The notes under the pieces are model-generated. The model had not been told where the DNA came from. It saw only the letters and a list, made by a program, of their open reading frames with translations, and ran no database searches. This document shows, one piece after another, positions 6,161 to 64,000 of a stretch of DNA of 64,000 bases. Both the position numbers and the translations under genes were made by a program. Positions within the stretch are counted from its first letter, which is position 1. Each line of letters opens with the position of its first letter. Source of the stretch: Ceratodon purpureus (Eukaryota; Streptophyta; Bryopsida; Pseudoditrichales; Ditrichaceae); assembly GCA_014871385.1 (NCBI GenBank), contig CM026422.1:21008177-21072176 (forward strand), in the 5' to 3' direction.

Positions 6161-6176
6161 CGTTATCAGCACGAGT
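6161..6176 (+). other. candidate primer-binding site
   Basis: The sequence right after the 5' LTR, CGTTATCAGCACGAG, resembles the TATCAG-containing primer sites of plant copia elements, which match initiator tRNA-Met. The match beyond TATCAG is partial. Confidence 0.55.
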
Positions 6177-6957: not shown

Positions 6958-7046
6958 CCTTGGTTTTTCCATCAACCTTGGTTTTTCCATCAACCTTGGT
7001 TTTTCCATCAACCTTGGTTTTTCCATCAACCTTGGTTTTTCCATCA
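6958..7046 (+). repeat. 18-bp minisatellite in the copia leader
   Basis: Five head-to-tail copies of CCTTGGTTTTTCCATCAA, the last slightly changed, in the untranslated leader between LTR and gag. Looser repeats of a GGTCACTGTTCATTTG-like unit occur earlier, at about 6245-6345. It is open in several frames, which creates spurious repetitive peptides. Confidence 0.9.
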
Positions 7047-7345
7047 GTATCAAGTTGTAGGACTGCAAGCACGAGGACCGCCAGCAGACTACAAGACAGA
7101 CGACTTCAGCCACAACCGGGAGTGATCTATTTCCCGTCACTCAGATTTTATTTCTACTCTTGGTTTTTGAGTTTTTGTTACTAGGTGTTGATTTCTATAT
7201 CTTCCCTAGGTAACATCGGAACTCACTAACCGTGCAACCAAGGTTTCTGTCACACAGAAGTTGGAGCAGTTTGTGTAGCCGTGCCCCTCCTAGGAATTGA
7301 CAAGCTTCCGAGTGGGCCAGCTCTTGAGGAGCTCTTTCCTTCGTC

Positions 7346-8728: not shown

Positions 8729-8748
8729 CACTGCGTAAAGGAGGACAA

Positions 8749-11724
8749 TTGCTTGCCATGGTACAAGAAGGCGCCACTGGACTTTATGAAGTATTGATTT
8801 CGGCAGACGCAAGCAATGCCCGCTCTTGCAACCTCACGGTGATTCCTAAGACTCAGCTCTGGCACCGGCGCTTGGGACACCCGGGTGCCACTATGTTCCG
8901 CAAGATGTTGCCAGTACTTACCGGCCATCCATTAAGTACCAGTGATGCAGACAAGGTGGCTGATTGCACAGCATGTATTCAAGGCAAGTATGCCAAGGCA
9001 GCATCTCGGTGGAAGCTCCCGACCGAGCTCCCTCAACCCCTTGAGCGCCTCCAGGGCGATATTTGTGGCCCCATCAGCCCACCGGCAGGTCAGTTTTTAT
9101 ATTTTCTGGTCCTTGTTGATGCGTCTGGTAGTCACGCCGAAGTATCTTTGCTTACAACCAGGAACATGGCCTTTCCAAAAATTCTAGCTATGCTCATCAA
9201 GTTTAGAACCCATTTTCCTGATAAACCCATCAAGACTCTGCGTATGGACAATGCTCAAGAATTTAGATCTCATGCCTTTGAAGACTATTGTACAGCCACA
9301 GGTATAGAGCTCACGTATGCTGTCCCATACGAGCATTCTCAAAACGGTCTAGCAGAAGCCTACATTAAGAAAATTCAGCTTATTACCCGCCCCTTGCTTC
9401 TTCATGCTAATCTCCCTGCTTCTATGTGGGGACATGCTGTTCTCCATGCTGCTAATCTCTTGCGACTTAGACCAACCCTTCTCAATTCTCAAACTTCATT
9501 TGAGTTAGTCTCAGGCAGAATCCCTGATGTTAGCCACCTGCGAGTATTTGGTTGTCAAGTCTTCGTACCTGCACCTGAGCCTCAAATCCGAACCATTAGT
9601 GCTCACATGATAGAGGGCGTTTACATTGGTTTTGACTCACCCAGCATCATCAGATACTTAGTGCCTACCTCTGGAGATATCCATAAGGCCCGTTTCGAAA
9701 ACTGTCGCTTTCTGGAAACTGTCTTTCCCAAACTCCCAACCAGACGAGCAGGTGCACCCTTAATTTTCCGAGCCCCTGAGACATTCACTCAAAACCCTGA
9801 TCCTCGTACTTCCCTTACAGAAACCGAAGTCAAGAAGTTACTCGAGCTTCAGTCCTTAGCTGCCCAAATCCCCGATGGTTTTGAGTCAGGGCCCCGCATT
9901 TTGAGAAATCCTATCCCTGGCGCTGGCAATGTTAGGCTATCCCCGATCCGGAGAGCTTCTAGAGTTAACACCCGACCCTCCAAGAAATCCAGAATAGAGC
10001 CTCAACCCATAGAACCTATTATCGACCAGTCAGAACCTGAATCCCATTGTCTTGAATCTGAATCAGACACCCAGGTTGAATCCTTTGTCACCAAGCTAGT
10101 TAGCCTCGACCATGAACCTAATTCCTTAGAGGAGGCTAGAGCTAGTCCTGATTGGCCCCAGTGGCAGGATGCCTTACAAGCTGAATACGATTCGCTCCGG
10201 AAAAGAGGAGTTTTTGGCCCCTTGTGTCTGACCCTTGAATCCAAGCCCATAGGGTATAAACTGGTCTTTACTAGGAAACGCAATGCCGAGGGTCAGATTG
10301 TCCGGTACAAGATCAGATGTGTTGCCCAAGGCTTCAACCAGCGCCGAGGAGTCGACTTCGACCAAACTTACTCACCAGTCATGGATTGTTCATCATTCCG
10401 CTATTTGTTGGCTCTAGCAGTCCAGCTTTCGCTTGCAACCAGATTATTGGACGTGGTCACAGCCTATCTTTATGGTGAGCTTGATGAGGAGATTTACATC
10501 AGGCCTCCACCAAATGTTTTGAAGCATAATCCCACTCCCCAACCTGGGAAATTTAGTGGCCTCAAGCTTCGAAAAGCACTTTATGGACTTAAGCAAGCGG
10601 GAAGAGCGTGGTATCATCATCTTCGACGTTTTCTTACGATTCACGGATTTACTTGTCACACAGCCCTTCCTTGCATCTTTGTCCTTTGTAAGGATGATGG
10701 TTATGTTATCTTGGCAGTGTATGTTGATGACATTAACTTGGTTGGTACTTCCAAACTCTGTACAGAAGTTGAGGACTTGTTATCTACCCAATTTGAAATC
10801 AAACTCCTTGGACAGACTAGCTTCTGTCTAGGTTTGCAGGTTCATCACCTCTCCGATCGGAGTATTCTTCTTCATCAGGAGAGTTATGTGAAGAAATTAT
10901 TGAAGCATTTCAATATGGCAACTTCCAACCCTATCTCAGCACCGATGGTTGGCCGAAGCAAGAGTGGAGAGGATCCTTATCGACCTTGCGAGGAGGAGGA
11001 GGAAGAAGTTGATAAGCAACGTTACCTCACTGCGGTCGGAGCTTTGATTTATCTTGCAACACATACAAGACCCGACATAGCTTTTGCCACCAGTGTACTC
11101 GCACGTCACAGCCAGAAGCCAACTCACCGCCACTGGGCAGCTATCAAACACTTGCTACGGTATCTCAGAGGTACGGAAGACCTTGGCCTTCATTTTTCCA
11201 AAAGAGCTAACCCAGATATTGTGGGATTTGCCGATTCAGGCTTCAAAACAGATGAGATCAATGGAAAGTCCCAGACGGGATATATTTTCATCAAAAATGG
11301 TGCACCCATTTCTTGGAAATCCATGAAGCAAACCATCACTGCTACATCAACAAATCACGCCGAGTTATTGGCGCTACATGAGGCGGCAAGAGAAGCAGTC
11401 TGGCTTCGTACAATGGTACAAACCATCTCAGAACAATGCAACATCAAATGCAACAGTGAAGCTACTATCATTTATGAAGACAATGCGGCAGCTGTAGCTC
11501 AAGTTGCAACAGGTTTTATAAAGGCGGATAGGGTAAAACATATTAATCCGACCTTATTTGGTTTCATGCAAGATCTTGTAGAAAGTAATCAGGTTATTGT
11601 TAGGAAGATTGAGTCGGCAAATAACATAGCCGACATGTTAACCAAGGCACTTCCAGCTTACAGGCATCGTGAGTTGGTAGCAGCCGCAGGGATGAAATCG
11701 CTCCAAGAACTTGACCAGTTTTAG
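8749..11724 (+). CDS. copia pol: integrase, reverse transcriptase, RNase H
   Basis: A 991-codon open stretch. In order it shows a GAG-pre-integrase zinc motif (LWHRRLGHPG with downstream CTAC), an integrase core (DICGPI, LRMDNAQEF and the NGLAEAYIKKIQ acid-bearing helix), and copia-type reverse transcriptase with the YVDDINL catalytic motif and ALYGLKQAGRAW. RNase H follows (FADSGFKTDE, ATSTNHAELLAL, YEDNAAA), and the frame ends just before the purine tract and 3' LTR. This is the expected copia domain order. Length and conserved motifs suggest a young copy. Confidence 0.95.
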   Translation: MLAMVQEGATGLYEVLISADASNARSCNLTVIPKTQLWHRRLGHPGATMFRKMLPVLTGHPLSTSDADKVADCTACIQGKYAKAASRWKLPTELPQPLERLQGDICGPISPPAGQFLYFLVLVDASGSHAEVSLLTTRNMAFPKILAMLIKFRTHFPDKPIKTLRMDNAQEFRSHAFEDYCTATGIELTYAVPYEHSQNGLAEAYIKKIQLITRPLLLHANLPASMWGHAVLHAANLLRLRPTLLNSQTSFELVSGRIPDVSHLRVFGCQVFVPAPEPQIRTISAHMIEGVYIGFDSPSIIRYLVPTSGDIHKARFENCRFLETVFPKLPTRRAGAPLIFRAPETFTQNPDPRTSLTETEVKKLLELQSLAAQIPDGFESGPRILRNPIPGAGNVRLSPIRRASRVNTRPSKKSRIEPQPIEPIIDQSEPESHCLESESDTQVESFVTKLVSLDHEPNSLEEARASPDWPQWQDALQAEYDSLRKRGVFGPLCLTLESKPIGYKLVFTRKRNAEGQIVRYKIRCVAQGFNQRRGVDFDQTYSPVMDCSSFRYLLALAVQLSLATRLLDVVTAYLYGELDEEIYIRPPPNVLKHNPTPQPGKFSGLKLRKALYGLKQAGRAWYHHLRRFLTIHGFTCHTALPCIFVLCKDDGYVILAVYVDDINLVGTSKLCTEVEDLLSTQFEIKLLGQTSFCLGLQVHHLSDRSILLHQESYVKKLLKHFNMATSNPISAPMVGRSKSGEDPYRPCEEEEEEVDKQRYLTAVGALIYLATHTRPDIAFATSVLARHSQKPTHRHWAAIKHLLRYLRGTEDLGLHFSKRANPDIVGFADSGFKTDEINGKSQTGYIFIKNGAPISWKSMKQTITATSTNHAELLALHEAAREAVWLRTMVQTISEQCNIKCNSEATIIYEDNAAAVAQVATGFIKADRVKHINPTLFGFMQDLVESNQVIVRKIESANNIADMLTKALPAYRHRELVAAAGMKSLQELDQF

Positions 11725-11805
11725 GGCATACTCTTTTCTTACCTAAGAGTTTTCCCCACTGGGGTTTTTCTCAAAGGTGAGTTTTTAATGAGGTGCTCCT
11801 AGGTC

Positions 11806-11814
11806 GAGGAGGAG
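11806..11814 (+). other. polypurine tract
   Basis: GAGGAGGAG directly abuts the 3' LTR, the expected site of plus-strand priming. Confidence 0.75.
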
Positions 11815-12052
11815 TATTAGAAAGGTTCTAGAAAGGTTCTAGAAGGGTGCGACCTCGGGAGCACCGACATGCAACTCCCGGGTGTCTTAAGCTAAAGTAG
11901 AGTACAACACTAAGTTAGTCATAGTTAATCCCTCAGTGTCATCACCTTGAGGGCTTTGGAGTTAACGTTCTTGAGGCAATAAATAAGATCAGCCTGAGGA
12001 AGGCTACACACTTTCCATCTTCATTTTCCCCTTTGCTCTGAGCTTTGTAACA
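11815..12052 (+). repeat. 3' LTR of the copia element
   Basis: 238 bp, the same length as the 5' LTR with about one mismatch; followed by the target duplication ATTTT at 12053-12057. Confidence 0.95.
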
Positions 12053-21882: not shown

Positions 21883-22006
21883 GGTCGTGTGAGCTGCTCT
21901 TCAGTTTCATTGCTCTCATCTGTGCTACCATCTTATATTCGTGCTCAAGCTCTTTGTCCGTTGTCTCATCTTCTCTTTGATCCTCTCCTCCACCAAGCTC
22001 TTCACC

Positions 22007-22540
22007 ATGTCTGGATGCGGAAGTGCCAACTGCGGATGCGGCCCAGGCTGCCAATGCAGCGCTGGATGCGGGTATGTCAGAAATACAGTTCCTCTCGCAT
22101 GATGGACGTCCTCTTTCTCCTTGCAGACTTTAGATGTTCACGATTAACTTTGTAGCTTGTTTAGTGTGACTGCTCAACTCCGGAACTCATATCGTCTTTG
22201 CTGCTGGACTATCTTCCGGTGCATCTTTAACCGGCTGATTGTTGTGTGAATTCATCCAGATGCTGCAAGACTTTGGCCGAGCCAACCTTCGGTGGTCTCC
22301 GCAAGTAAGTGCCCGCTTCTTCACCCTCAGTTTAGTGGGTACCTTCCTTAATGATGCGGCCATTAGACTTTTCAATAGCAATTCTGCAGCCCATGCTGCA
22401 CATAGTGGTTGCCACATGTTCCAGTGAGTAGAGTCTAATGATCCCACTTTTGCTGTGCATTTGTGAGCAGCTACAACTCGGAGAACGACTGCAAGTGCGG
22501 CCCCAACTGCAACTGTGCTGATTGCGACTGCCACAAGTAA
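22007..22540 (+). CDS. plant metallothionein, intact copy
   Basis: Three exons at 22007-22071, 22260-22304 and 22471-22540, with GT-AG introns, encode 59 residues. The protein has 14 cysteines. Eight lie in the N-terminal cluster (C4, C9, C11, C15, C17, C21, C23, C24) and six in the C-terminal cluster (C44 to C57, ending CDCHK). A cysteine-free linker with FGGLRNYNSEN joins them. This two-cluster layout is the plant metallothionein pattern: a cytosolic protein that binds zinc, copper or cadmium through thiolates. The exon pattern, CxC spacing and length all agree. The gene lies in a duplicated block whose second copy is damaged, so this is the likely functional copy. Which metal it handles cannot be read from the sequence. 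Confidence 0.93.
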
Positions 22541-22880
22541 ATCACCGATCAACAGGGCCATTGCCATGGCCGCATGTAACAGATAGCTTCCGAAGTTGAA
22601 AGCGAGAGTTGCATGGTAGTATGGCTGTTCAATTGTGTGAAAGAGTTTGAAAGATAGCAAAAAAAAGTCAAAAAATAATGGCTGCCCTTGTTGAATAACC
22701 GCGTGATGGCAAAGACAATCAGGTTTTCTAGAGAGAATGTGATGATGCGTGGGGCTGACCTGGTTTGAGTTGCAGCCCCTTATTGCCATCCTTTTGTAAA
22801 CCGTGAGTCATATGAATTGGACATAGTGTGATTTATTGTGACCAGTAACGGGTGCTTCCAGCTTGTCTGTGAGATGTTAT

Positions 22881-24679
22881 CCTTTGAATGATTCTTTGTA
22901 AAACTTACGTCAGAAGTGATATGATTTGTTTCATCTTCTGGACCAATATGCATCTTTAACGTCAGCTGAGCAGATGGCTTGGCAATTCGTAGAAGGCACT
23001 CAGTTATATATGAAGAACTTCGACGTGCCTGTATGAACTGGTTCACCGAAAGCTGTTCTAATTAGATCGCTGGATAGTGTGTGGTTACTTGAAAAGACTG
23101 CTTACAGCTCCAAATGAATCTAATGTGCAAGGTTCACTGCGAGGTTTGTTCTGTTTTCACTGAAATGGGCATCGTGAGATGTCTGCTTGGTAGAATATTC
23201 CCTAGTGCGGGGTTGGGTTCTAGAATTACAACCTTGATGTTATTCGCAACATTCAGAGGAAAACAGGAAGGGCCATAATTGTAGATTGCGCAACAACCAC
23301 AGCTTAGAATCGGTGAATTCTAAGTTGGTGCGCTTACAGATATGTAGAGTATAGAGTTTTGAAAACAAGTGAATTTTAGAGTGTGAGTCCTCTTTAGACC
23401 TTGGATTGTGTTGAATGTGAAATTGTACAACTATCTGACTGCAACTCTGGTGATGTATTGTTCCAACAAGGTTCGAAATCTAACCTGTGATCTACTAACC
23501 TGCAGCTACGCAGTGAAACAGTACTGCCTCCAGTTTAGCTCAAGCATCCCCTCTTTGCACTTTGTGTAATTAATTGATATTCACCAATCACCAGCACATT
23601 TGTCACCAGAATACAAACATCAGTTACTCACTTTGTACTGCAAAATGGTTATACTCTTCCATCGAATCTTCAAAGGAGACATTGAGAAAGGAACTTACTG
23701 GCAATGCTATGACGTTCCTGAGCAGGGATCAAACTGGATGCTGAACAATTCGCTCATGCTCGCTGTAATGGAAATTGTAGTAAAAGAGACAATTCTATAT
23801 TAATCAAAAGTGCTAATCCAACATCCAAATTTTATCAACTTTTGTTTAAAACTCCTTGAAAAATTAAAACCCAAAAGTATGTATCTTCATTGAAGAGTAG
23901 TACTGCACAGAATGTACTGTAGTATCCGTGCACCTCCCTACTTGGAAGTAGACGCCTACTGCTCCTTGAAGTCGGTAGGGTCTTCGTGATGAGTTGCTTT
24001 GGCATGCACCTTGAGCTTCATGCTAAGGTTGATCCATCTAACAAAAAATCAACAGTAAACTAGAACCGTCGTCGATATCAAAGCATCTGCGATTGAATAC
24101 TTGACCTGGTCTACATTGCCGGCCCATCGAGATTCGAGATAAGTGAGATATTGTATGATCAGTGAGATATTGTATGATTCATGTGACTCTGAATGTCTAA
24201 AAGCTTACTGAATATAATCAATAGTATAACTTAAAGGTCGGTGTTCTCGAGAGTTCAGCCAGCTAACCCAAATTATATATTCAGGTTCACTTGATCGACA
24301 AGGTGTAATGTAAGAATGTTGTTCAAGTAATCCTTCTGAGGTTTGTCAGCGTTTGACTTCTAGGTTCTTTAATTGATCCTCGAGCACACTGGGCTAGTGG
24401 CTTTTACCGATATGAGGCTCCGTGCAACTGGTCTCTGAGTTATCAAAGAAGAAACCGATGTGCCGGTCAACTGATTCTTCTGTTTTTGATCTTGGTAAGT
24501 GAATAGATTCTATGCAAGTGTGAAGAATGAAAGTTACTTAACTGATCCGCAACTGAAGAATGAAGAGTCCAAGTTTGCTGTCGAAGGTGCTTTCGTCTGG
24601 TATTGCATATTCACAGTCAGATACCACCATTGCACTTCGAATCAGAGGCAGCTTAATTCGTCATCACCTTTACTCAATC
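22881..24679. other. spacer between the duplicated blocks
   Basis: No gene recognised. A 67-codon open frame at 23600-23803 (plus) has no recognisable domain. A short direct repeat (AGTGAGATATTGTATGAT) occurs at about 24142 and 24160. Confidence 0.45.
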
Positions 24680-25521: not shown

Positions 25522-25648
25522 GGGGCCATGTGCTGCACTTGAGTTACATTGCTCTCAATTGTGCTTCCTTACCATCTTCGTGCCAAAGCTCGTCCGTGGG
25601 CCTCTTTCTCTCTCAAAATCTAGCCTCTCCTCTTCCAAGCTCTCCACC

Positions 25649-26219
25649 ATGTCTGGATGCGGAGGCACCAACTGTGGACGAGGTGCTGGCTGCCAATGCA
25701 GCCCCGGGTGCGGGTATGTCAGCAACACAGTGCCACTCACTAGACGATCCATCTCTCACCTCTCAAAATTTTGCTAAGACATAATCAGTACTAACTTCAT
25801 TCCGTTGCTTGTTCGGTGTGACCATGTGCATCTCCAGAACTCATGCTGGTGCCCTCTTGTCAATGATATTTTTCAAACATTTTTTTTAACGAAATGCGTG
25901 TTGTGTGAATCAAACCAGATGCTGCAAAAGCTTGGCTGAGCCAACCTTCGGTGGTCTCCGCAAGTAAGTGTCCGCGTCTTCACCCTCCTCACTTGAATAT
26001 GTACCTTCCTCAATGTCGACGCTGCTAATTCTGTACAGACTTTTGAATTGAAACTTTCACCCCGTTCTGCACACAATAGTTGCTGCATGTCCCAATGTCT
26101 TTGAGTAGAGTCTGATGGTTCCCTTGCGGCACGTGCATTCGTGAACAGCTACAACTCGGAGAACGACTGCAAGTGCGGCCCAAAACTGCAACTGTGCTGA
26201 CTGCGACTGCCACAAGTAA
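25649..26219 (+). pseudogene. metallothionein copy B, frameshifted
   Basis: Exons at 25649-25713, 25919-25963 and from 26149 match copy A with conserved splice sites. In exon 3 there is one extra A in CCCAAAACTG (about 26180-26187; copy A has CCCCAACTG). The frame therefore changes after CKCGP and ends at TGA 26198-26200, giving 53 residues. The C-terminal Cys cluster loses C50, C52, C55 and C57 and gains one terminal Cys. C11 is also replaced by Arg. The original stop position is still visible as TAA at 26217-26219. The gene retains its TATA box and introns, so it may still be transcribed. It is either a decaying paralogue or a one-base sequence error; the Cys-to-Arg change favours real decay. 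Confidence 0.85.
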
Positions 26220-26575
26220 ATCACCGATCGACAGGGCCATTGCCAAGGCCGCATGTGACTGATGGCTTCCGAAGTTGAAAGAGGTGCATAGTAATGTGTG
26301 TCACCCATAGTGTGCAGAAGTTGGAGAGTTTAAAACGAAAAGTAGAAATAGCTGTGAGAGATTTGGCACGATGGCTGCCTTTATTGAATAACCGCGTGAT
26401 GGCAAGGTTAATCATATTTTCTTGAGAGGATGTGATGATGCGATACGGCCGAACCGGTTTGAATTGCAGCTCCAAATTGCCATCCCGCTGTAAATCGTGT
26501 GTCATATGAAGTGCATATAATGTGATGTAAAGTGGTGACGGGTGCTTCCAGCTTGTCTATGAGATGTTTTCTTGG

Positions 26576-42094: not shown

Positions 42095-44156
42095 ATGATG
42101 ATGACTTTTGGTAACTTCAGAAACAAGTTATCTGATTTGTTTAAGTCAAAAACCACTGAAGTTGATAATCCTGCTATCACTGGAGGGCTAGCAACCACTG
42201 AAGTTGATACTCCTGCTATCACTGGAGGGCAAGCAACCACTGAATCAGGTGACAGTGATCACCATATCAAGATGATGGGTAGTAATTACTAAGGATTGCG
42301 ATCGGATGCGTCCAGATTACGTTCTTAGGTGTTTTACAGTTTGGTCGCAGATTACTAGAGGCTTAAAGTATAGTGTGTCTTCTTGCTGCTCTCTGATCTA
42401 GATGTCACCTGATTCGTGTTGTCGCATCTGTGATCTTGATTAGCTTGACGCGCACACTTTGTAATGAAACCCAACCTGATTCAGACTGTTACGTTGCGCT
42501 CCAGGTGAAAACCCCCAATTTTACTTGAGGCTGACAACACAATGTACGAAGAAAGTTCAAAGCATGGTTGCTTCCACTTCGCTGAAGTTCAACCACGAGC
42601 AATGCGAGTATCTCGCCCACAAACTGGAAAAAACTGTGCGGAGCGCTCATTCCTATCATGAGCAATTGACCAGTACATTGTATTTTGAGTTTGCTTCAGG
42701 TGAAGACAGAGAACGGTGTCTTGAGATATTCAAGCTTGTCTTTGCGTTAACTCAGGAAGTTGAGACGTTCATCCTGGGGTGCTCCGAAGAGACGTGGGTC
42801 CAATCCGCCATCCTCTTGGCAATTGCATCGGATGTGCACATTGCTTCATTATGTTTCCACCTGGAATTCTGCACAACTGTCTTGTCTAAAAGGAAGGTAT
42901 CTGGAGGAACTCCAGTCTTGACGGATGCAGAAATTTCCAGCCTACATAAATCTGAATCTGGTATTGTCAAAGAGATGTCTCAACGGGACCGACGTAGTTT
43001 GGATATGAATCTCAGGGCTCTAGAAAACCAGGTGTCAAGGAAACCGGGTGGTGCAGATCAGGAGCACATCTTGGTTCTACGTGAAAGATTGAAATCCACA
43101 ATGCTGATTCCAAGTGCTGAATTGCCAGAAGCGAACCAATTAGGTAGTCGTCCTGGATTTATACGCATGAGCAGCCTGAAGCAGATAACCAAGTTGGGGT
43201 CGGGTTCTTTTGGTGATGTGCACAAAATGAACTGGCTGGGTTTTGAAGTTGCGAGGAAAACTTTCCATGGATCCAGTGCGCCAGATTTTGAGCGGGAGAT
43301 CCAGATCTTAGAAGGGTTATGCCATCCCAACATTGTGTCCTTGCTTGGGTATACAAGAAATACGCGCAAATGCTACTTGATCATGGAGTTGATGGATGGG
43401 GACCTTTACTCTTTGATGCAGGAAAGACTGGAGTTAGGAAATGGTGGTCTTCCTTTCAGCATTTCGGAAGCAGTGCACATGATGCTGCAAGTGGCTGAAG
43501 GGATGCTGTTCCTGCATGAGAAGCAAATTGTGCACAGAGACCTAAAATCGCAAAACATATTGGTGAAGCATATGGGGATCAATAATGTGCATGTGAAGGT
43601 GGCAGATTTTGGGCTGTCGAGGACAAAGGAGAACAGTAGGACGTATTCCATCCAAACCCTGAATCAAGGGACGTCAAGGTGGATGGCTCCCGAAATGATC
43701 CATCTCATGAATGAAGATGGTCATGTAGAGTCACATCGTGAGGACCTGCTGAAGTACCCTTTCAAAGTTGATGTATACAGCTTTGGAATGGTATGTTTTG
43801 AGATTTTGACTGGAGACCTGCCTTTCCCAAGCCTGACCCCGAGGGAAGTGAAGATGAAGGTGCTGCGGGGTGATCGTCCACAGTTATCAGATGACTGTCC
43901 GGAAAGACTAAGGTCTTTGATTGAGTCATGCTGGAGCTCCAAGCCCGATGAGCGCCCGCGATTTGATTACATTTGTGCGGAGTTGAGGCATCTGAAATGT
44001 GCACATTATATGACATGTAATTTTCTTGATTCTGAACCTGGGCTATGCATAATGTTCTTAATGAGAGGATCCTGTTATGTTGGAGCCGTCCCCGGGGCTT
44101 TGATTGTGGATTTCTCCAAATCAACTAGGGTTCGGACATTTTCAAAGTTGTGGTAG
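42095..44156 (+). CDS. TKL-type protein kinase with N-terminal helical domain
   Basis: The best model has two exons, 42095-42278 and 42505-44156 (GT-AG, phases agree), giving 611 residues. The N-terminus MMMTFGNFRNKLSDLF is followed by two 14-residue repeats (TTEVDNPAITGGLA type) encoded by 42152-42235. A helical region of about 150 residues follows (EQCEYLAHKLEKTVRSAHSY onward) that resembles the N-terminal domain of plant DUF1221/MLKL-like kinases; this is inference. The kinase domain looks active: LGSGSFGDV, VARK lysine, HRDLKSQN, DFGLSR, GTSRWMAPEM, DVYSFGM. The sequence is closest in style to RAF/TKL kinases, likely cytoplasmic as no signal peptide or membrane span is visible. A second kinase gene starts about 50 bp after the stop. 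If exon 1 is wrong, the first in-frame Met in exon 2 is at 42564. Confidence 0.82.
42152..42244 (+). repeat. 42-bp in-frame tandem repeat
   Basis: Two copies (42152-42193 and 42194-42235), differing at about three bases, plus a 9-bp partial third. They encode a 14-residue Thr/Ile/Gly-rich repeat near the kinase N-terminus. Confidence 0.88.
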
Positions 44157-46124: not shown

Positions 46125-46417
46125 AGAGGAGAGAGAAGTGCACAGTCCTATTTGCGTGTAGTTTGTGTTGTGAAGCTGTAACTTCAAACCCAGAGCCTCC
46201 AGATTGTGTTGCTTTAATTGGTTCCAAATGACGTCCAACGCCGCATATGCCTGATGGATATATTCCTATGTTGTTTTTGAAGGAAAAAAATTAAAAAACT
46301 ATAAAGTCATGCACATGGTTCAAGTCATGCTGCTTAAAATAGATTATAAATTGACATATTTAGGTCTACAAATTTGTATTATGTGTGGTAGACTTGAATA
46401 GCCTCCAGGGGACTATC

Positions 46418-46520
46418 CTTCATCTTCACTTCCCTAGGGGTCAGGCTTGGGAAAAGCATGTCTCCAGTCAAAATCTCCAAACATACCATTCCAAAGCTGT
46501 ATACATCAACTTTGAAACCC
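46418..46520 (-). pseudogene. inverted fragment of the upstream TKL kinase
   Basis: On the minus strand this stretch matches 43762-43861 of the kinase C-lobe (FKVDVYSFGMVC, EILTGD, FPSLTPREVKMK) with few differences. Similarity ends abruptly on both sides. It is a short, recent inverted copy without coding capacity of its own. Confidence 0.88.
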
Positions 46521-55407: not shown

Positions 55408-57302
55408 GTGAGGGGTAACTTAAATACCGGCTTTTAGTTTTCCAACGCATAGCAACGAGGAAGTGTACGATTTCTTTACAAACAAAAAATAAATTCACAA
55501 TGACTACCAAGCAATGTCAAATTTGGTTAGTGTTCAAATTACCTGATATGTAGCAACAACAGTATGGTCAAGCCACCCAATGCATAACCAATCACTTAAA
55601 GATTTTAGCATATGATATTAAAATATATAATTTTTTTAGGATTTCTCATATGTGCAAACATAAGGTTCTTGTTGAATGCAAAAAGTTCCATGATTTTATT
55701 TCCCCCATTCAAATAGTTATAATTATTTGAAGTGAAAAGTTGCTCGTAATCCACAACCAATCTATAGAGTGCTACATAACCGCTCACTATGGAAGTAGTT
55801 TCTAATCATCCTGGTACATGTAATTGTCAACAAAGAAAGTCAAAACTTCTGTAACACAAATATGTAAGAACCAATAAGAGTGAACCACCTATGCATGTTT
55901 ATAACCATCCATAAAAATTGGAAATGATTGGAAATGTGTCTAGCCCATGACTATTTCTATGTATCCTACATGTTGCCGATGGGGTCATGGTTGGTAAGGG
56001 GTGGTTGGACCATAGCTCCAAATACAAAGTCCTTCAAAAAGCTGCCCTCTCAACACTTGGAAGTTCTTGTGTACTAATAAATTGCTGTGAAGCTAAAATA
56101 ATTGCAATAAAAATCATCCACACTTTCTTGAAAATCACCATCTTTATTAAAACACTCAATAAATCTCTCAAGGACGTGCCATACCGGACTTCATCCACAC
56201 CCCACAAGTTTCCTATGAGACTTAAATCGGCCCTACAATAGTGCATTCCTAAAAAGTGGTGGCTAAGTGTAGTTAAATGCTATTAGTTTTGGTAGCTTCT
56301 AGAAGGTTCTACATTCTTTCACTAGTTTTTAGAACCTTCCACGCCTCTATTAGTTTCCAGATACTTCCACAAGCTTCAATTTTGTCTTAGCAGGTTTTGG
56401 AAACTTCCACAAGATTCCGTATAGGTCTAGTAGTTTTCGGAAGCTTCCGGAAGTTTCCATATGTCATCAACCGGGACTCGCCAAGAGTTTTTCTTTGTAA
56501 GAGTTATCTACGTCCCTCCTTCTTAGCGCACTACCTACACTCGAAAAAAATAACTGATCAGTAGAAAAAAACTCTAACATTTAACAATTTTCCTTAATCT
56601 CCAATATAGGGTGGAAATTTTACTTGCATAGTTGACGGGCGGGGGCGGAGATTTGGAGGGATCGGAAGTGCCGTTTGGAGAATGTGAGAGCTGGTGAGGA
56701 AAGGACTGAACTATGACCCCGTAGTATTCAGCCCAATCCCGGTTCGCGCAAGACTAGAGTGTCAATGCTCTAAGCAATTTGAACTCAAACTGAACGCACT
56801 TAAAAAATGAACCTGTAGTTTCCAAGATTAGTCAATATAGACCGGCTTCCACTCCAGATCTGCAACAAATAGAGCGGACATACGAACCTCACCCAAACAC
56901 AAAAATCGCCTCTAACTTGCCCCTATTTAAAATCAACACACAACCACCCTAGAGATCCCATGTTTGTTAGTCTTTGTATACTTAGAAGACCATATAGTTC
57001 AGTATATATCAATTAATGTACAACAGTTTTTTGATATATTTGCAATGGTTCCACATTTCAAAAGAAATTTAGGCCAAAAGTGACACTGAACTTCTTGTTA
57101 ATTTGGTTCTCACAAGCTTTTAGAATTTCCAAATAAGAACAATTTATCAAAAGAAAATGTCAAAACTACACCACTAAATTTACTACATCACAAACTATAA
57201 TGTGTTGATGCAACATTCTAGCAAACGAAAAGGACAAAGTTGGTATTCAGTAATTGAGCCTCGTCTATTTACGTACCCATATTAAGAATAAAGAATATCT
57301 TA
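55408..57302. other. AT-rich intergenic DNA with a TTC/GAA motif cluster
   Basis: No gene recognised. Apart from the heat-shock-element-like cluster at 56297-56457 I see nothing supportable. Confidence 0.45.
56297..56457. promoter_or_regulatory. cluster of heat-shock-element-like motifs
   Basis: TTCTAGAAGGTTC (56297-56309) is a perfect three-unit heat-shock element. GAAGCTTCCGGAAGTTTC (56440-56457) is a perfect four-unit one. Between them, loose copies of an AGAACCTTCCAC-like unit recur every 40-55 bp. Heat-shock factors bind alternating GAA/TTC units. No gene start was identified nearby, so a regulatory role is uncertain. Confidence 0.5.
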
Positions 57303-57304
57303 TA

Positions 57305-57702
57305 AGGTAGAAGCACCTAAAACCAATCGCACCTCAGAACCAACCTGTAGATGTCCCAGAACCGCATTTTGGCTGACCACCTGGCTGACTAGCATTGTCA
57401 GACCATTGACCAATCAAAAAGTTCAAAAACACTCAAAAAGCTGGTCGTTTTGGGTACACTCATGAGTGGAAATTAGTACCAACTAGGTGTGACAATGGAA
57501 AAAGTCTAAATATCAGTTTTGGGTCACGAAGTACTTTTGTGTTTCGAAATTTGTATCTATTTCAATATTGGGAAGAAAATTTTGAAAAAATTTACATTCT
57601 ATGAAAAACCTATTTTTCTACACGTGAAAATTACACCCCAAAAATATATCAAAAAAAAAAGGCTCAAAACCCGTAAGTTGTTGGTTTTAGGTGCTTCTAC
57701 CT
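57305..57702. mobile_element. MITE with AGGTAG termini and TA duplication
   Basis: Perfect 22-bp terminal inverted repeats start AGGTAGAAGCACCTAAAACC and are flanked by TA (57303-57304 and 57703-57704). The 398-bp AT-rich interior has no coding capacity and shares the GGGTCACG..GTACTTTT segment with the element at 16098-16465. It is the better preserved of the two. Confidence 0.82.
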
Positions 57703-57719
57703 TACTCAGAACCTGCGAC

Positions 57720-57761
57720 TAGAAAAATCCATGGGTCTCATAGAAAAATCCATGGGTCTCA
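57720..57761. repeat. 21-bp perfect tandem duplication
   Basis: TAGAAAAATCCATGGGTCTC plus A, twice in a row, 16 bp outside the MITE. Confidence 0.95.
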
Positions 57762-59261
57762 TAGCTCACGGGATACATTCGTGTAAATTATTAAATTTTG
57801 ATTTCTTCAATTATTCTTGACTTGTAAAGAATTTAATTATGACATAAAAGAGGACCAAGCTTATAGCGGAAAGGATGAATGAATGCCTGGCAAAGTTTCA
57901 TCCGTTAGGGCAGCCGCAGGGTGACAGATATCGTTGGGATCGCTCTAAAAGAGTCCAAGGGTCTGTCTCTCAAGAAACACCGACACACCTGCATTCTCAT
58001 GCTCATGCTCTTCGGGCTCTTACATAGCCGATGCCTGGCTCTGGATTTCTACATTCCTCCACCATGGCTGAAGTGGGTTCCATGTCTTGCAAAGGCTTCA
58101 GCGCCGCAGGTGCGTGGCCACGTTCTCTATTGCATTGTGTTGTTGTGAAGCATGCATTCGTATTTGCATCGTACTCTGCAGTTTCTGGATTAGATGGGAC
58201 TCGGTGTATGCGAACAGATGGGCATGGCACTCTTGATCTTGACCAGACGAAGCTGAAACAGGGAGAACGTGAGCACAGTCCAAGATTTGTGCATATTCTT
58301 GGGGTCGGTGATTCTTGATTGTGCATTCCTGTTACCTCCTGCTTTCGTGACTAGCCTCTCCCAGTCTAACACGTTTCTTCGGAGTTGTTGTCTCTGCATG
58401 CAGTGGAGAGCATGCTCTTCTCTTGATGGGGTGTGGGGTTATCTGTTCTCCAAACCCTTGTATCAGCAAGGTCAGTTCTGATGAGTGCATCTTAGGTTAT
58501 GCGACAAAGATGCTCCTCAGTTGGTACCATGATTTTGTACCAGTAGGCTCATTTGGTGCGAACGTCTTGCAGATACGAGGTCCACAACAGAGACGATGTA
58601 GGCACATGGTGATGATGTGGGTTCTAAGTGTTTGTTGGTCGGTTGCCTGGTGATGCAAATCTGTTTTCGTGCGAGAGAGAGACAGAGGTGCCCTCCAGGA
58701 TACATGGTTTGTGTGCGCAGGGATACAGGTGGAGAGCGTGGTAGCGACGGTCTTTCCGGAGGTGAGGTGCCATCATCCTTCTGTCGATTGTGAAGTGAAG
58801 CATGCTGGAAGAATGATGTCCAGAGGGGGCCGTGGGTGGCCTGCAAGTGATGTAAAGAGCTCCGGGGACTGACTGAATGCGCCTGCGAGTGAGGAACTAA
58901 TGAAGCATCCAGTGCAGGTGGGTGTTATGAGATGAGTGTAGGGTTGGGCAACGCAGACGCCGGGCCAGGTCCTCGGACTTAGAATTCATTCAGAGTCTGA
59001 GGTCGGTAGAGTGTGGTGCTGCGTAGAGAAGGAAGTGGGTGTAGAGTATCCCTGGTCGTGTCATGCTCGTGGTGTTCCATTCTTCTGCCACTGCAGGGGC
59101 AGTGGGTAGGATTGCAGGACCGAGGAGGCAACGTTGCGAGGCTTCCTCGGTCCATTCGGTTGCTGCTGGACGTGGTAGCGGTTGTGGTGTAGGGTTAGGG
59201 TTTGGAGGTTTAGATAGTAGGTGAGAAGTAGGTTTGTCATGTGTCGGTGATCGGCTAACAT
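57762..59261. other. no recognised gene upstream of the tRNA cluster
   Basis: Moderately GC-rich DNA with several short open frames on both strands, none with a domain that I recognise. Confidence 0.4.
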
Positions 59262-59301
59262 GTTCATATGGCCGAGTTGGTCTAAGGCGCCAGATTAAGG
59301 T

Positions 59302-59334
<33 letters not shown>

Positions 59335-59342
59335 TGTGAACA
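59262..59342 (+). tRNA. tRNA-Leu(AAG)
   Basis: A complete 81-nt cloverleaf. Acceptor GTTCATA pairs with TGTGAAC, the anticodon stem is CCAGA/TCTGG with loop TTAAGGT (anticodon AAG), the long variable arm is TCCGAAAGGGC, and the T arm is GTGGGTTCAAATCCCAC. A box (TGGCCGAGTTGG) and B box (GGTTCAAATCC) are good. No T run follows before the next tRNA. Confidence 0.96.
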
Positions 59343-59345
59343 TTG

Positions 59346-59365
59346 CCCCTCCGTCGCTGGAGGGG
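59346..59365 (+). other. GC hairpin between tRNA-Leu and tRNA-Tyr
   Basis: CCCCTCC pairs perfectly with GGAGGGG around a 6-base loop in the 51-nt gap. It could be a processing element in a joint transcript. Confidence 0.6.
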
Positions 59366-59393
59366 GGCGCCCCCGATCATGATCTGTTACTTA

Positions 59394-59477
59394 CCGACCA
59401 TAGCTCAGTTGGCAGAGCGGAGGACTGTAGAGTTGGCAGATATCCTTAGGTCACTGGTTCAAATCCGGTTGGTCGGA
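59394..59477 (+). tRNA. tRNA-Tyr(GTA) with an 11-nt intron
   Basis: Acceptor CCGACCA pairs with TGGTCGG, and the T arm holds GGTTCAAATCC. The anticodon loop CTGTAG is followed by the intron AGTTGGCAGAT (59431-59441) at the canonical site one base 3' of the anticodon. The mature stem GAGGA/TCCTT forms only after removal. Plant nuclear tRNA-Tyr genes normally carry such an intron. A TTTT terminator is at 59484-59487. Confidence 0.96.
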
Positions 59478-59483
59478 CACCAG

Positions 59484-59487
59484 TTTT
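59484..59487 (+). terminator. Pol III T-run after tRNA-Tyr
   Basis: First TTTT downstream of either tRNA-Leu or tRNA-Tyr. Confidence 0.7.
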
Positions 59488-59868
59488 GTTTCTGCGGGTT
59501 GTGTTTTACCTGTGTGGATGTGTCCGAGCACATTCTCAGGGCGTTTTTGTGAAGACACTAGGGCGTGCTGCTGGAATCAGCATTTTGCGTTTTTTCCCTT
59601 CGTTTCTGTATGTTGTCATTGGTTTTCTGGGCGTGTTCGAACTTCGGGTGGTGGCTACTCGAAGCAGAGAGTGTTTGTGTTGACAGAAGAGGGGGGGCGT
59701 TGGGAAGGAGGGGAGGGGGAGAGTGAATTAGCAATGTGTTTGCGAAAAGTAATGTGTTTTGGAGAAGCATTGTGTTCTGCGAAAAGCGATGTGTTTTGCG
59801 TGACGGGTGTTTTGGTGGTGCGTTTGGGGTTAGGCTTTGCGGAGCGCAGTGATGGAAGCATGAAACTG

Positions 59869-59940
59869 GGATCCGTGGCGCAATGGTAGCGCGTCTGACT
59901 CCAGATCAGAAGGTTGCGTGTTCGATTCACATCGGGTTCA
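59869..59940 (+). tRNA. tRNA-Trp(CCA)
   Basis: 72 nt. Acceptor GGATCCG pairs with CGGGTTC, including one G-T pair. The anticodon stem is CTGA/TCAG with loop CTCCAGA (anticodon CCA), the D arm starts TGGCGCAATGG, and the T arm holds TGTTCGATTCACA. A TTTTT terminator is at 59968-59972. Confidence 0.95.
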
Positions 59941-59967
59941 ATCTCCCGAACATATCTTCCTAGCGCG

Positions 59968-59972
59968 TTTTT
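59968..59972 (+). terminator. Pol III T-run after tRNA-Trp
   Basis: TTTTT 28 bp after the tRNA end. Confidence 0.65.
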
Positions 59973-60086
59973 GATTTTGTGATCTTTTTTTGATCGAATG
60001 TCCGGATGGACATATTCGATTGTGTACGAAGGAAGGGAGCGTAGGTATCATCTCGAGGCATTTCCACAGCAGCTCTGCTTCGTTTC

Positions 60087-60168
60087 GTCAATTTGGCCGA
60101 GTGGTTAAGGCGGCAGACTCGAAATCTGCTGGGGTTTCCCCGCGCAGGTTCAAATCCTGCAGTTGACG
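60087..60168 (+). tRNA. tRNA-Ser(CGA), left copy
   Basis: 82 nt. Acceptor GTCAATT pairs with AGTTGAC, the anticodon stem is GCAGA/TCTGC with loop CTCGAAA (anticodon CGA), the long variable arm is GGGGTTTCCCC, and the T arm holds GGTTCAAATCC. The discriminator base is G. A TTTT terminator is at 60180-60183. An identical copy lies inverted at 63795-63876. Confidence 0.96.
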
Positions 60169-60711
60169 TACTGCTTCAATTTTGTGAACATTGCTCGAGC
60201 GGTTATGTCAATATCGGAAGTACTGAGCGCACGTTGATCAATCAGTTGCAGGTTTTGATCATCGAGGAACAGAGATCATCTTGGCTGCCAATCCGGAGGG
60301 GTTTCCGACTTCACCATTGTGGAGAATGGAGATGGATCATGCTATCAGACTGGTTTACCGGCGTACATTTAAGTTCACCATTTCTTTCTACCTTGAGGAA
60401 GCTGTGACCCTCTTGCGTATGTATATGTTGACACTCATTCGCCTGGCTCAGTGTGCTGTCTCGTCCTTGAGTGTGCCGTCTCGTCCTTCAGTTTTTTCCT
60501 CTACACCTAGGAGCAATTGTTTTTCAGTCGCATCGTCAGGTACAATATTGGTTCACTCATCTATCAGGGTGCGGCTGTTGGTTTCCGTCGAGCTGTAGTA
60601 GCTGCTGTGGTAGCTCAGAGGTGTAATGATGGCTGGAAGGAGAAGAGATCAGTACGAAGTACTCACTGGGTTTGAGAGATTGGGTCAATGATCGACTGCA
60701 ATGCTTGGTTT

Positions 60712-62037
60712 CAGGTGATCGAAGATGGCTGCTCGACGTGTGTTGCCTCCGGTGATGGCTACCATGGCTACTCAAAGTTGACCGCCATGTGGTGAACCGG
60801 CTCCAGGCCGCATAGGGCCAGAAGTAAGCGTAGATGCAGAGTTCAGACCAGATCTGGTGACCTTTGAGAGAGCCAGTGATAAATGCAGCTGTGATTTGAA
60901 GTTATTCTTCTCAAATAAAAGCTAACGGAACAAGACTTTGTTCTTTAATTTGGAAAATGGGTGCCGTGCTGGAAATTTATGAGCTTATCAGCTTTCGTAA
61001 TTGCTATTGTCTGGATCTTAAAGATGTATAAGGTTGTGGGACCGATAATTCCTGACTGAATTTCAGCATTAGCTACAATATTTGAGCATTTCTATAATTT
61101 TCTGTGATATTTTAAAGTCTGCATGTGTATAATCTTTGAACCGCTCATAGAGTCCTGGATTTCATGAGAAGTTGAATCCTAAAATAGAGTTCTGCACCAA
61201 TCAGAGCTAATCAGAAACAAGGCACTCATACGAAATTTCAAACTGGAAGGGGTTCTTGAACATAGATGGGTTGTCGAGCACCGCAACGTTGGTCACGTTC
61301 ACAGCCGACATGATGATGAAGCAGAAACTCCCACAAAAACTACCTCACTCTAGAACCTCTCAGAGACTGAATATAGAATGGGAGGAGCCCAGTAAAAGCT
61401 CTACGCGCAGCTACGAAGGTAACCAATCCAACAAAACCGATCACGAAGCTAGAGCTTAATCAACGACACCAGAAGTCTAAACACCAAAATCCTAAGCAGA
61501 ATGAGCGGAGGGGAGAGGGAGAGCGAAGTGAAGCTTGAGTTGCGAGTGCTTGATCATTCGCGACATTCCTCCTTTCTAGAGGCGCCTTCAGACCGCAGGA
61601 AATATAACACACTAATGAAATTTAATATCAGACTTTTTGAGCTGAAAAATATAACCATGAGTGAACAGGTAGTCTAGCCATAGATCATATTCCTCAGAGA
61701 AGGTGAAAGCGATATTGTGCAAAATAGAAGCCAAGTCATACTCCAAGTCAGGGCACTGGTAAATTTTCACTGTATTTTATGTATCCTCAAGCATCTGGTA
61801 AAAACAGATGGAGTCGCCTTAGGTAAAGTACATCAAAACTAAGCTCGTATGACATAAATATGGATATAAATGTCACCACATCATTCAACTGATTGCTGTC
61901 GCGGACCACCATGACCAATTCAGCAACCATCGAACCACAACATCACCTACCGAGAAGAGACCGCCAGCAACAAGACTGGCGGTATCCAGGAACCACTAAC
62001 GTCTTGGCACAACCAGATACCACTAACTTCACAATCT
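60712..62037. other. palindrome spacer, left part
   Basis: No gene recognised. AT-rich DNA downstream of the minus-strand NTF2 gene; its first few hundred bases beside the gene may be the 3' UTR. Confidence 0.45.
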
Positions 62038-62409
62038 TCAGCCGTAATTGAGCCGAAAAATGTCATTCAACACATATAAGCTTCCTTGAGGAGTAGGAAG
62101 GAGGTGGAACATCTGAGCAAATTGGAGCAAATGCTCCTCATCAGGAAGTTGCAAGGTCCCGCTCACGAACACCACCATGCCACCCGCAGGCCCCGAAGGC
62201 TGGCAGTCGACGGTCGAGACGATGTGCTTGCACTGCTGGAAACAGAGGCTGTTCAGCTTGTCGCTGATCGCCTGGCCGCCCTGCACCTTCTGCCCCTCGA
62301 ACGTCAGCATAGATCCCTCCTCGTAAAGCCCCACGAGCGCCTCCCGGTTTGTGTCAAATGTGCTGTAGTAGTGCTCTACGAACGCCGTGCTCAACACATC
62401 GGGATCCAT
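62038..62409 (-). CDS. NTF2: nuclear transport factor 2, intronless
   Basis: A single exon of 123 residues, the normal NTF2 length. The start ATG is at 62407-62409, chosen because MDPDVLSTAFVEHYYSTFDT matches the family N-terminus, although the frame stays open upstream. Conserved parts are LVGLYEEGSMLTFEGQKVQG, FQQCKHIVSTVDCQPSG, GGMVVFVSGTLQL, FAQMFHLLPTPQGSLYVLND and IFRLNY. NTF2 is a homodimer that binds RanGDP and FxFG nucleoporins and returns Ran to the nucleus. A TATATAA box lies about 65 bp upstream. The lack of introns contrasts with the other genes here and hints at a retrocopy, but the frame is intact. It lies in the spacer of the large inverted duplication. Confidence 0.95.
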   Translation of the reverse strand: MDPDVLSTAFVEHYYSTFDTNREALVGLYEEGSMLTFEGQKVQGGQAISDKLNSLCFQQCKHIVSTVDCQPSGPAGGMVVFVSGTLQLPDEEHLLQFAQMFHLLPTPQGSLYVLNDIFRLNYG

Positions 62410-62474
62410 TTCTGGCACTCGCTGCTGCTCTTTAATGTCGAGTACTGTGGCTCTTTGGTGCAGGTGGGTGAGCG

Positions 62475-62481
62475 TTATATA
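62475..62481 (-). promoter_or_regulatory. TATA box of NTF2
   Basis: TATATAA on the minus strand, about 65 bp upstream of the NTF2 start codon. Confidence 0.6.
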
Positions 62482-63166
62482 GATGCGCAGGTCAGGCGCG
62501 TGGAACTCACGCAACAACGATCACGCAACCCGAGGCAGAGCTGCCCAAATCTCCCCTTTCTCAAAGCCCCACTGAATTACCCAAATAATTGTGCCCGACG
62601 AGCCTCTCTAGAAGTTTAGAGCGAAGACTAGTCCTAAATTTGACTTGTTATATGCCTTGCCACACACTCAGCAGAATTATAACTATAGAAATCCAGGCAA
62701 AAACTGATAAAACAGCAAATAATTCATTCGGGGCTCAAGCAAACCTAAACTCATCTCTTAGCAAATAATCTGAAGGCTTTAACAGAATTGACAAGAAACT
62801 CATTGCATTCCTGGCTTGGAAGATGGGATGGAAACTGGCCCGCCCCGGTTGTGGGGCAAATGAGGAGGGACAACATTGCGAAAGAAACTGTTACAGTAAA
62901 TCGAAAGACCCACCCCACCAATCCAACATTCCGAACTCTGAACCAGAAATATTCAATGGCTTGACTTGTACATGAACGTCAAACAGAATGATGACCTAGA
63001 ACATTCCGTAAAACCAACGCCAGAACTCGAGGGCCGAGACTACTACTGCTGGAAGCACCGTCATCTTAGGAACGTCATCTCAATGGGGCTAGTAAAGCTA
63101 CCCACCAGTATTTGGTTCCCGCATTGTGCACTTATCAGACCTCAGGTCGGACTCAAATCCAATTCT
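62482..63166. other. NTF2 upstream region
   Basis: No gene recognised. Open frames on the plus strand opposite NTF2 (62086-62619) are shadows. Confidence 0.45.
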
Positions 63167-63252
63167 AAGCTGTGTTCAACACTCTATCCCTGAATGTTTC
63201 ACTTGCTGAAAGCTGTGTTCAAAACTCTTGCTCCGACTAATTCACTTGCTCA
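63167..63252. repeat. 43-bp diverged tandem repeat at the arm junction
   Basis: Two copies (63167-63209 and 63210-63252) share AAGCTGTGTTCAA and TTCACTTGCT. The end of the second copy coincides with the inner border of the right arm at 63252. Confidence 0.75.
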
Positions 63253-64000
63253 AACCAAGCATTGCAGTCGATCATTGACCCAATCTCTCAAACCCAGTGA
63301 GTACTTCGTACTGATCTCTTCTCCTTCCAGCCATCATTACACCTCTGAGCTACCACAGCAGCTACTACAGCTCGACGGAAACCAACAGCCGCACCCTGAT
63401 AGATGAGTGAACCAATATTGTACCTGACGATGCGACTGAAAAACAATTGCTCCTAGGTGTAGAGGAAAAAACTGAAGGACGAGACGGCACACTCAAGGAC
63501 GAGACAGCACACTGAGCCAGGCGAATGAGTGTCAACATATACATACGCAAGAGGGTCACAGCTTCCTCAAGGTAGAAAGAAATGGTGAACTTAAATGTAC
63601 GCCGGTAAACCAGTCTGATAGCATGATCCATCTCCATTCTCCACAATGGTGAAGTCGGAAACCCCTCCGGATTGGCAGCCAAGATGATCTCTGTTCCTCG
63701 ATGATCAAAACCTGCAACTGATTGATCAACGTGCGCTCAGTACTTCCGATATTGACATAACCGCTCGAGCAATGTTCACAAAATTGAAGCAGTACGTCAA
63801 CTGCAGGATTTGAACCTGCGCGGGGAAACCCCAGCAGATTTCGAGTCTGCCGCCTTAACCACTCGGCCAAATTGACGAAACGAAGCAGAGCTGCTGTGGA
63901 AATGCCTCGAGATGATACCTACGCTCCCTTCCTTCGTACACAATCGAATATGTCCATCCGGACATTCGATCAAAAAAAGATCACAAAATCAAAAACGCGC
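63252..64000 (-). repeat. right arm of the large inverted duplication
   Basis: The reverse complement of 59963-60711, running off the window end. Mirror pairs sum to 123963 (for example 60087 with 63876). Confidence 0.95.
63795..63876 (-). tRNA. tRNA-Ser(CGA), right copy
   Basis: Identical in reverse complement to 60087-60168, with the same cloverleaf, anticodon CGA and downstream T run. Confidence 0.95.

Follow-up and report, generated by a model that had tools for sequence, protein, structure and literature searches.

What has made the two arms of a tRNA-bearing palindrome in the moss Ceratodon purpureus so nearly identical? The palindrome lies at the end of a 64,000-nucleotide stretch of DNA, referred to here as the window (C2:21008177-21072176; C1 to C13 are contig labels), and a first-pass annotation of that stretch had offered three causes for the likeness of its arms: a very recent duplication, ongoing gene conversion, or an assembly artefact. 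We examined this palindrome, which we call A, together with the 10 kb directly following the window end on C2 (L017) and the 362,488,568-base assembly as a whole (151 contigs), in which other palindromes are labeled B to F. Palindrome A is a real inverted repeat, an inverted segmental duplication that carries a tRNA-Leu-Tyr-Trp-Ser cluster in each arm. It is probably a gene palindrome whose arms have been kept alike by arm-to-arm gene conversion, a conclusion drawn from one assembly.

Structure and extent of the palindrome

The left arm (59963-60711) and the reverse complement of 63252-64000 are identical at 749/749 positions, far beyond chance, and the inner arm ends enclose a spacer of 2540 bp (60712-63251). 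Repeat finding returned the same arm pair 3 nt longer (752), including one mismatch; the first base inward of both inner junctions differs, and the following two match by chance. The window end is the sole cut of the right arm, and mirrored sequence resumes in L017. In a position-by-position alignment, the near-identical arm in full covers 58072-60711, 2640 bp, with 2 differences from the mirrored arm (at 59931, within tRNA-Trp, and at 58239), and weaker mirrored sequence reaches out to 56907 on the left. BLAST aligned the arms over 3010 columns (96.4% identity) and an outer block over 398 columns (77.4%).

ARAGORN and Rfam identified tRNA-Leu(AAG), tRNA-Tyr(GTA, with an 11-nt intron), tRNA-Trp(CCA) and tRNA-Ser(CGA) on the left side and tRNA-Ser on the right side within the window, and ARAGORN found mirrored tRNA-Trp, tRNA-Tyr and tRNA-Leu in L017. 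The locus therefore has both the two long inverted arms around a spacer and the intact genes, with four tRNA genes called per arm, that define a gene palindrome. These results bear out the large inverted duplication with tRNA-Ser(CGA) in both arms that the first-pass annotation had described, and its suspicion that the other three tRNA genes are mirrored beyond the window. The features of the arms are as follows.

56907-57291, plus strand: outermost mirrored remnant of the left arm, 77.4% over 398 columns, its counterpart lying about 0.4 kb closer to the core
57712-58071, plus strand: outer diverged part of the left arm (bins 57712-57911 at 66%, 57912-58111 at 82%)
58072-60711, plus strand: near-identical core of the left arm, 2640 bp with 2 differences; the 200-bp bins from 58112 onward are all at 99.5 or 100%
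59261-59343, plus strand: tRNA-Leu(AAG) (ARAGORN, Rfam), mirror at L017:620-702
59394-59478, plus strand: tRNA-Tyr(GTA) with 11-nt intron (ARAGORN, Rfam), mirror at L017:485-569
59869-59940, plus strand: tRNA-Trp(CCA) (ARAGORN), mirror at L017:23-94, arm-to-arm difference at 59931
60086-60169, plus strand: tRNA-Ser(CGA), left copy (ARAGORN, Rfam)
60345-60711, plus strand: inner arm segment that does not belong to the tRNA cluster; its homologues on C3 and C7 continue into sequence homologous to the left end of the spacer, and no copy was found at palindrome B
63167-63252, plus strand: pair of 43-bp tandem units whose end coincides with the right inner junction
63252-64000, minus strand: in-window part of the right arm, 749/749 to the left arm, running past the window end to C2:21074417
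63794-63877, minus strand: tRNA-Ser(CGA), right copy (ARAGORN, Rfam)

The genome search found only two full copies of the 749-bp arm, both at the palindrome A locus (32/32 candidates scored), so we do not regard the arm as a mobile repeat. A 33-base piece of the arm had no exact match in viral and prokaryote collections, from which records of the moss's own genome were possibly excluded.

Identity step and composite arm

If the second arm were a single fresh duplication, it should be evenly alike along its length and then end in unrelated sequence. Instead, the identity profile falls in a step: 58112-60711 holds the 2 differences, 57912-58111 is at 82%, 57712-57911 is at 66%, 57312-57711 gives no alignment to the opposite arm, and 56912-57311 is at 72-82%. 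The core is thus 99.9% identical, versus 66-82% for the rest of the same arms where they can be aligned, and the order of the outermost block is kept on both sides, although it lies about 0.4 kb closer to the core on the right. A 99.9% core inside a mirrored 66-82% arm argues for gene conversion within an older palindrome, the inner part of which was recently homogenised, and the step speaks against a single fresh duplication. Of the three causes first offered, gene conversion fits best, since neither a very recent single duplication nor an assembly artefact alone leaves diverged mirrored flanks, and the arms would be older than their identity suggests. Given zero differences in 749 bp and a rate of 7e-9 per site and generation, which is a figure for plants and may not be this plant's, the last homogenisation would date to less than about 290,000 generations ago. 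In palindrome B identity also drops outward, from ~97-100% over the inner 4 kb to 82-97% outside, unevenly, in a profile where overlapping matches are counted twice in some bins.

The arm is also composite, in that parts of it, unlike the whole 749 bp, match other loci. The tRNA part (59015-60344) is ~79% identical to palindrome B, 0.86 Mb away on C2, which has tRNA-Leu(CAA) where A has tRNA-Ser. The adjoining stretch, 60345-60768, is likewise ~79% identical to loci on C3 and C7, and those loci continue, past a ~0.5-kb insertion, into a homologue of 60772-61031. At palindrome B the tRNA part lies ~120 bp from a homologue of 62677-63222, as on A's right side, but without the 60345-60711 piece. 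Because sequence is continuous at C3 and C7 and palindrome B lacks the piece, 60345-60711 appears to be original to the left side, and the right arm most plausibly acquired it by left-to-right copying that stopped at 60711/63252. Two 43-bp tandem units end at this right inner junction, at 63252 by repeat finding and at 63254 by Tandem Repeats Finder.

We propose that an old inverted duplication set a mirrored second copy of the tRNA cluster beside the first. The outer arm parts would then have diverged, while arm-to-arm gene conversion would have overwritten the inner 2.6 kb, now 99.9% identical, with at least one copying event taking the 367-bp segment 60345-60711 from the left side into the right arm. 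The spacer may have grown as a patchwork, probably via break repair that captured or copied fragments of other chromosomes. Such a history would reflect a general habit of this genome, inverted gene duplication coupled with efficient homologous copying, and nothing special to the tRNA cluster of palindrome A. Active homologous recombination is known from this moss group.

Alternatively, a recent nested inverted duplication could have produced the step. In this main rival to gene conversion, a single event (template switch or break-induced copying) would have laid the 2.6-kb identical core onto an older, weak mirrored similarity, with no recurring conversion. It would account for a core that is almost free of differences and has sharp edges, and for inner junctions at which the arms diverge at once, the very next base being different; the patchwork spacer is compatible with template switching. 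However, the new copy must land beside the diverged flanks (about C2:21074070-21074838) with both order and orientation correct, something that conversion ensures automatically, and palindrome B shows several identity levels along one arm. We consider a nested duplication rather unlikely.

An assembly artefact, in which one arm was copied in by misassembly, is very unlikely. It would explain the perfect in-window identity of the arms, and our reading of the locus comes from the assembly. Yet the arms are not identical throughout and then unrelated: they differ at 59931 and 58239, and 66-82% mirrored flanks follow them. The window is free of N, and the same pattern recurs at other loci, with arms at 92 to 100%. 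A SMRTbell-type palindrome would lack a 2.5-kb spacer such as the one seen here, and allelic false duplication is not expected in moss plants, which are haploid. The main kind of false duplication is allelic (PMC9516828).

The patchwork spacer

Sequence between the arms matches eight chromosomes. The first-pass annotation had placed an NTF2 gene here, correctly: the open reading frame (ORF) at 62038-62409 is the sole NTF2 ORF in the spacer. It had noticed neither an ASF1 fragment, nor the patchwork nature of the spacer, nor the recurrence of such palindromes across the genome. We distinguished the following parts.

60712-63251, no strand assigned: spacer, built as a patchwork whose fragments have homologues on several chromosomes
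61075-61218, minus strand: dispersed repeat of ~140 bp, 33 matches of 73-78% (best 40 of 167 candidates)
61216-61602, minus strand: truncated ASF1 copy, promoter region and first 32 codons (coding part 61216-61311; Pfam, PDB sequences), 83% to the C13 gene
61322-62020, no strand assigned: segment with ~91% copies on C13, C10 and C12 (genome search)
62038-62409, minus strand: NTF2, complete, intronless, 123 aa (Pfam; PDB relatives), with an intronless C4 paralogue at 79%
62677-63222, no strand assigned: segment with an 85% counterpart in palindrome B, where ~120 bp separate it from the tRNA cluster

In addition, 62401-62545 is 97% identical to C2 at 19.12 Mb, 62547-62806 matches C6, and part of another NTF2 paralogue matches on C10. 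That pieces of one spacer have homologues on several chromosomes suggests repair that captured or copied fragments. Intron loss in Physcomitrella has been linked to the moss's frequent homologous recombination (PMC3729371), and this may be relevant to the lack of introns in NTF2. The repeat at 61075-61218 has matches on most chromosomes and adjoins the ASF1 truncation point within ~3 bases; it is a possible short mobile element.

The inverted-repeat mechanisms that we weighed included origin-dependent inverted-repeat amplification (ODIRA) and template switching (PMC11790251, PMC10766186), as well as staggered breaks (PMC5080602, PMC11499932). With staggered breaks, a micro-inversion would have inverted the spacer, duplicated the arm at both ends and split ASF1. 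Inverted duplications at inversion breakpoints mark this mechanism and flank the inverted segment, as the arms do here (PMC5080602), and ASF1 is represented by its start only. The gene split expected from such an inversion is not what we found. A full-length-looking ASF1 gene lies on C13, where residues 1-151 of the human protein are matched in two pieces, and the homology of the window copy to that gene stops inside an exon, after 32 codons; the splice-donor score at the supposed exon end is unfavourable (52nd percentile). A search that recovered 147/150 planted exons of 25 residues and 60/60 of 42 residues detected no additional ASF1 exon, either within the window or in the 10 kb beyond it. 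A second match to the ASF1 start occurs at C3:1334653. Moreover, the C3 and C7 homologues run uninterrupted across the left junction, which is therefore not a new breakpoint. We therefore reject a staggered-break inversion that split ASF1 as highly improbable.

A transposon with long terminal inverted repeats and captured gene fragments (Pack-MULE-like) would place NTF2 and ASF1 fragments between inverted arms, but it is barely credible and we reject it: each arm has four intact-looking tRNA genes, the outer ends fade over hundreds of bases with no clean terminus, and the genome holds two full copies of the arm rather than many copies of its termini, in a search that used the 749-bp arm and not the outer ends by themselves.

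Inverted gene pairs across the genome and in other organisms

Palindrome A is one of many. Inverted neighbour pairs of tRNA, U6, histone and ubiquitin-conjugating-enzyme (UQ_con) genes occur on several chromosomes. At base level we read 24 inverted pairs, made up of palindromes A to F (6), 10 same-score tRNA pairs from an Rfam list, and 8 U6, histone and UQ_con pairs, and in 24/24 the arms extend beyond the gene, over at least 536 bp at 92-100%. Palindromes A to F were selected because their matches were inverted; the five further sets, taken from tRNA-Ser and arm matches, were palindromes in 5/5 cases.

Palindrome B: C2 21.93 Mb, core 98.6%
Palindrome C: C1 22.16 Mb, 99.9%, 4.8-kb arms
Palindrome D: C1 2.61 Mb, 100%, 1.8 kb
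Palindrome E: C4 16.30 Mb, 99.7%, tRNA-Pro and -Ser
Palindrome F: C12 5.21 Mb, 98-99%

In A, D, E and F the tRNA genes face the centre and in B and C they face away from it, so such palindromes are likely to have arisen independently at least twice; a common origin is conceivable for A, D and F. On C1, C2 and C12, all or part of the tRNA cluster Leu(AAG)-Tyr-Trp-(Arg)-Ser/Leu occurs in palindromic form, and the centre can lie on either side of it. Unpaired Trp-Ser neighbours also exist, for example at C2:24.36 Mb, as do Arg-Ser neighbours at C4:20.09 Mb.

The Rfam list comprised the best 63 of 18,830 tRNA candidates, and pairs were defined as same-score neighbours within 30 kb; 10 were inverted and 2 direct (one Asn array). 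In 10/10 of the inverted pairs the arms pass beyond the tRNA, eight at 99-100% over the whole 1.07 kb compared, one over 536 bp at 99.8% and one over 686 bp at 92%. Counts by family cover the matches listed for each family and are not genome totals; the non-tRNA families are the sole comparison for palindrome frequency. For tRNA-Trp, 19 full-length genes at >=96% were counted among 24 matches (5 shorter or weaker ones were excluded), and 13/19 lie in inverted neighbour sets within 30 kb, with 7/7 neighbour pairs inverted. For tRNA-Gln, 20 of 32 matches passed the same threshold; 6/20 are in inverted pairs and there is 1 direct neighbour pair, while the 12 excluded matches add two inverted and three direct neighbours, all partial or weaker copies. 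Genes make up 27/32 matches of tRNA-Ser type, and 11/27 are in inverted sets. The best 40 of 70 tRNA-Asn candidates form 4 inverted loci and 2 direct ones; by gene copy, however, the direct array on C12 alone outweighs the inverted sets. This array (C12:2899007-2936066) holds at least 20 copies at an 843-bp step, in two blocks and a single direction. Counted as loci, the tRNA family lists, the Rfam list and palindrome E yield at least 19 inverted sets and at least 2 purely direct ones. Some inverted pairs are known from the match lists alone: tRNA-Trp on C5 (6.78 Mb), Asn on C7, C10 and C11, and Gln on C11 (8.46/8.47 Mb) and C2 (3.99 Mb), the Gln pairs being partial or 87% copies.

Outside the tRNA genes, U6 gave 24 matches, 23 of them over the cut-off, with 3 inverted pairs and 3 direct pairs (2 involving weak matches). 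The 30 histone matches, some of which are exons of one gene, include 3 inverted pairs and 1 direct pair, and the 44 UQ_con matches, many of them single exons, include 2 inverted pairs and 1 weak direct pair. In 8/8 of these inverted pairs the arms measure 650-1250 bp, lower bounds limited by the stretch read, at 94.9-100%. The first-pass annotation had pointed to inverted tRNA genes as fork-stalling sites that can seed palindromes. That idea fares poorly, both because 542 bp separate the end of the nearest tRNA (60169) from the inner junction (60711) and because long arms of near identity occur in the U6, histone and UQ_con pairs as well. We likewise reject a mechanism restricted to tRNA genes, given the U6, histone and UQ_con pairs, or to polymerase III genes, given the three histone and two UQ_con inverted pairs with long arms.

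Several observations weigh against arm-to-arm conversion as the source of this likeness. Conversion is read from a single assembly, and the outer remnants of palindrome A, mirrored in order with a spacing off by ~0.4 kb, could stem from a separate older event. Palindrome D, 6/10 of the 1.07-kb tRNA samples and 2/8 of the non-tRNA samples are 100% identical over the whole stretch read, which recent duplication fits equally. In most families a minority of genes is in inverted sets (Ser-type 11/27, Gln 6/20, U6 6/23, Rfam tRNA list 19/63), and there are direct arrays too, the tRNA-Asn array on C12 and another on C1, in which neighbours are alike at 93.5% and 99.0%. Neighbours can thus be near-identical in direct order as well, and genes other than tRNA genes also occur in inverted order. 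In the few comparisons made between loci, genes of the same isoacceptor were less alike than the arms within a locus: for Gln, 71.5% over 499 columns in one pair and short 91-97% stretches in another, and for Arg, 88-92% over short stretches. This fits concerted evolution within each locus, and fits recent local duplication as well.

A broader reading of these palindromes, which we offer tentatively and hold to be doubtful, is that they form a widespread copy-editing device. In a plant that is mainly haploid, the inverted core genes (tRNA, U6, histone, ubiquitin-conjugating enzyme) would repeatedly repair each other, each gene having a permanent template on the same chromosome, which might help to keep the genes intact. 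The cluster Leu-Tyr-Trp-(Arg)-Ser/Leu, whole or in part, would have become palindromic at five places, at least twice independently. If this is true, frequent long inverted pairs of core genes with near-identical arms make this probably haploid plant a natural setting in which to examine arm-to-arm conversion away from sex chromosomes, and they caution against taking every identical inverted arm in such assemblies for an artefact.

Arm-to-arm gene conversion is known from the palindromes of human and ape Y chromosomes. Like A, those palindromes have large near-identical inverted arms with genes and a unique spacer in the middle; unlike them, the palindromes here lie on several plant chromosomes, have arms of a few kb and carry tRNA, U6 and housekeeping genes, and conversion is read from a single genome. 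The Y-chromosome case is cited in a study of gene palindromes that counted 11 in Folsomia candida and 17 in Adineta vaga (PMC5490193). Those palindromic gene blocks are also scattered over the genome, but both animals are parthenogens, and in Folsomia the range of synonymous divergence was used to argue against concerted evolution (PMC5490193). Gene conversion between inverted arms was proposed for long, nearly perfect inverted repeats in Caenorhabditis, which resemble ours in having convergent and divergent gene pairs with highly identical arms (PMC1803023). Two example spacers there measure 126 and 414 bp, versus 1.8-13 kb in the main arms of A to F; that study compared three species, and the word "tRNA" does not occur in its main text (PMC1803023). 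In Physcomitrella, gene conversion was suggested for highly similar tandemly arrayed genes, another instance of neighbouring moss gene copies kept alike; the genes there are in tandem, and the available part of that paper does not mention palindromic tRNA clusters (PMC3045890). A literature search by title and abstract opening found no publication describing tRNA palindromes in the nuclear genome of a moss. tRNA genes have been described as having a fast turnover, and nearly all pairs in the tRNA clusters of Arabidopsis and Selaginella (<1 kb apart) are parallel (PMC2888827), which is not directly comparable, as pairs here reach 30 kb.

Elsewhere in the window, 5925-12052 is a young Copia retrotransposon with two identical 236-bp long terminal repeats and Pfam-recognised gag and pol ORFs. 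Positions 21890-22881 and 25529-26571 form a direct duplication of ~1 kb at 73% identity. A 101-bp piece (43760-43860) of the protein-kinase ORF 42525-44156 recurs inverted, 2.56 kb away, at 46417-46517 with 96% identity, a small inverted copy of a gene fragment.

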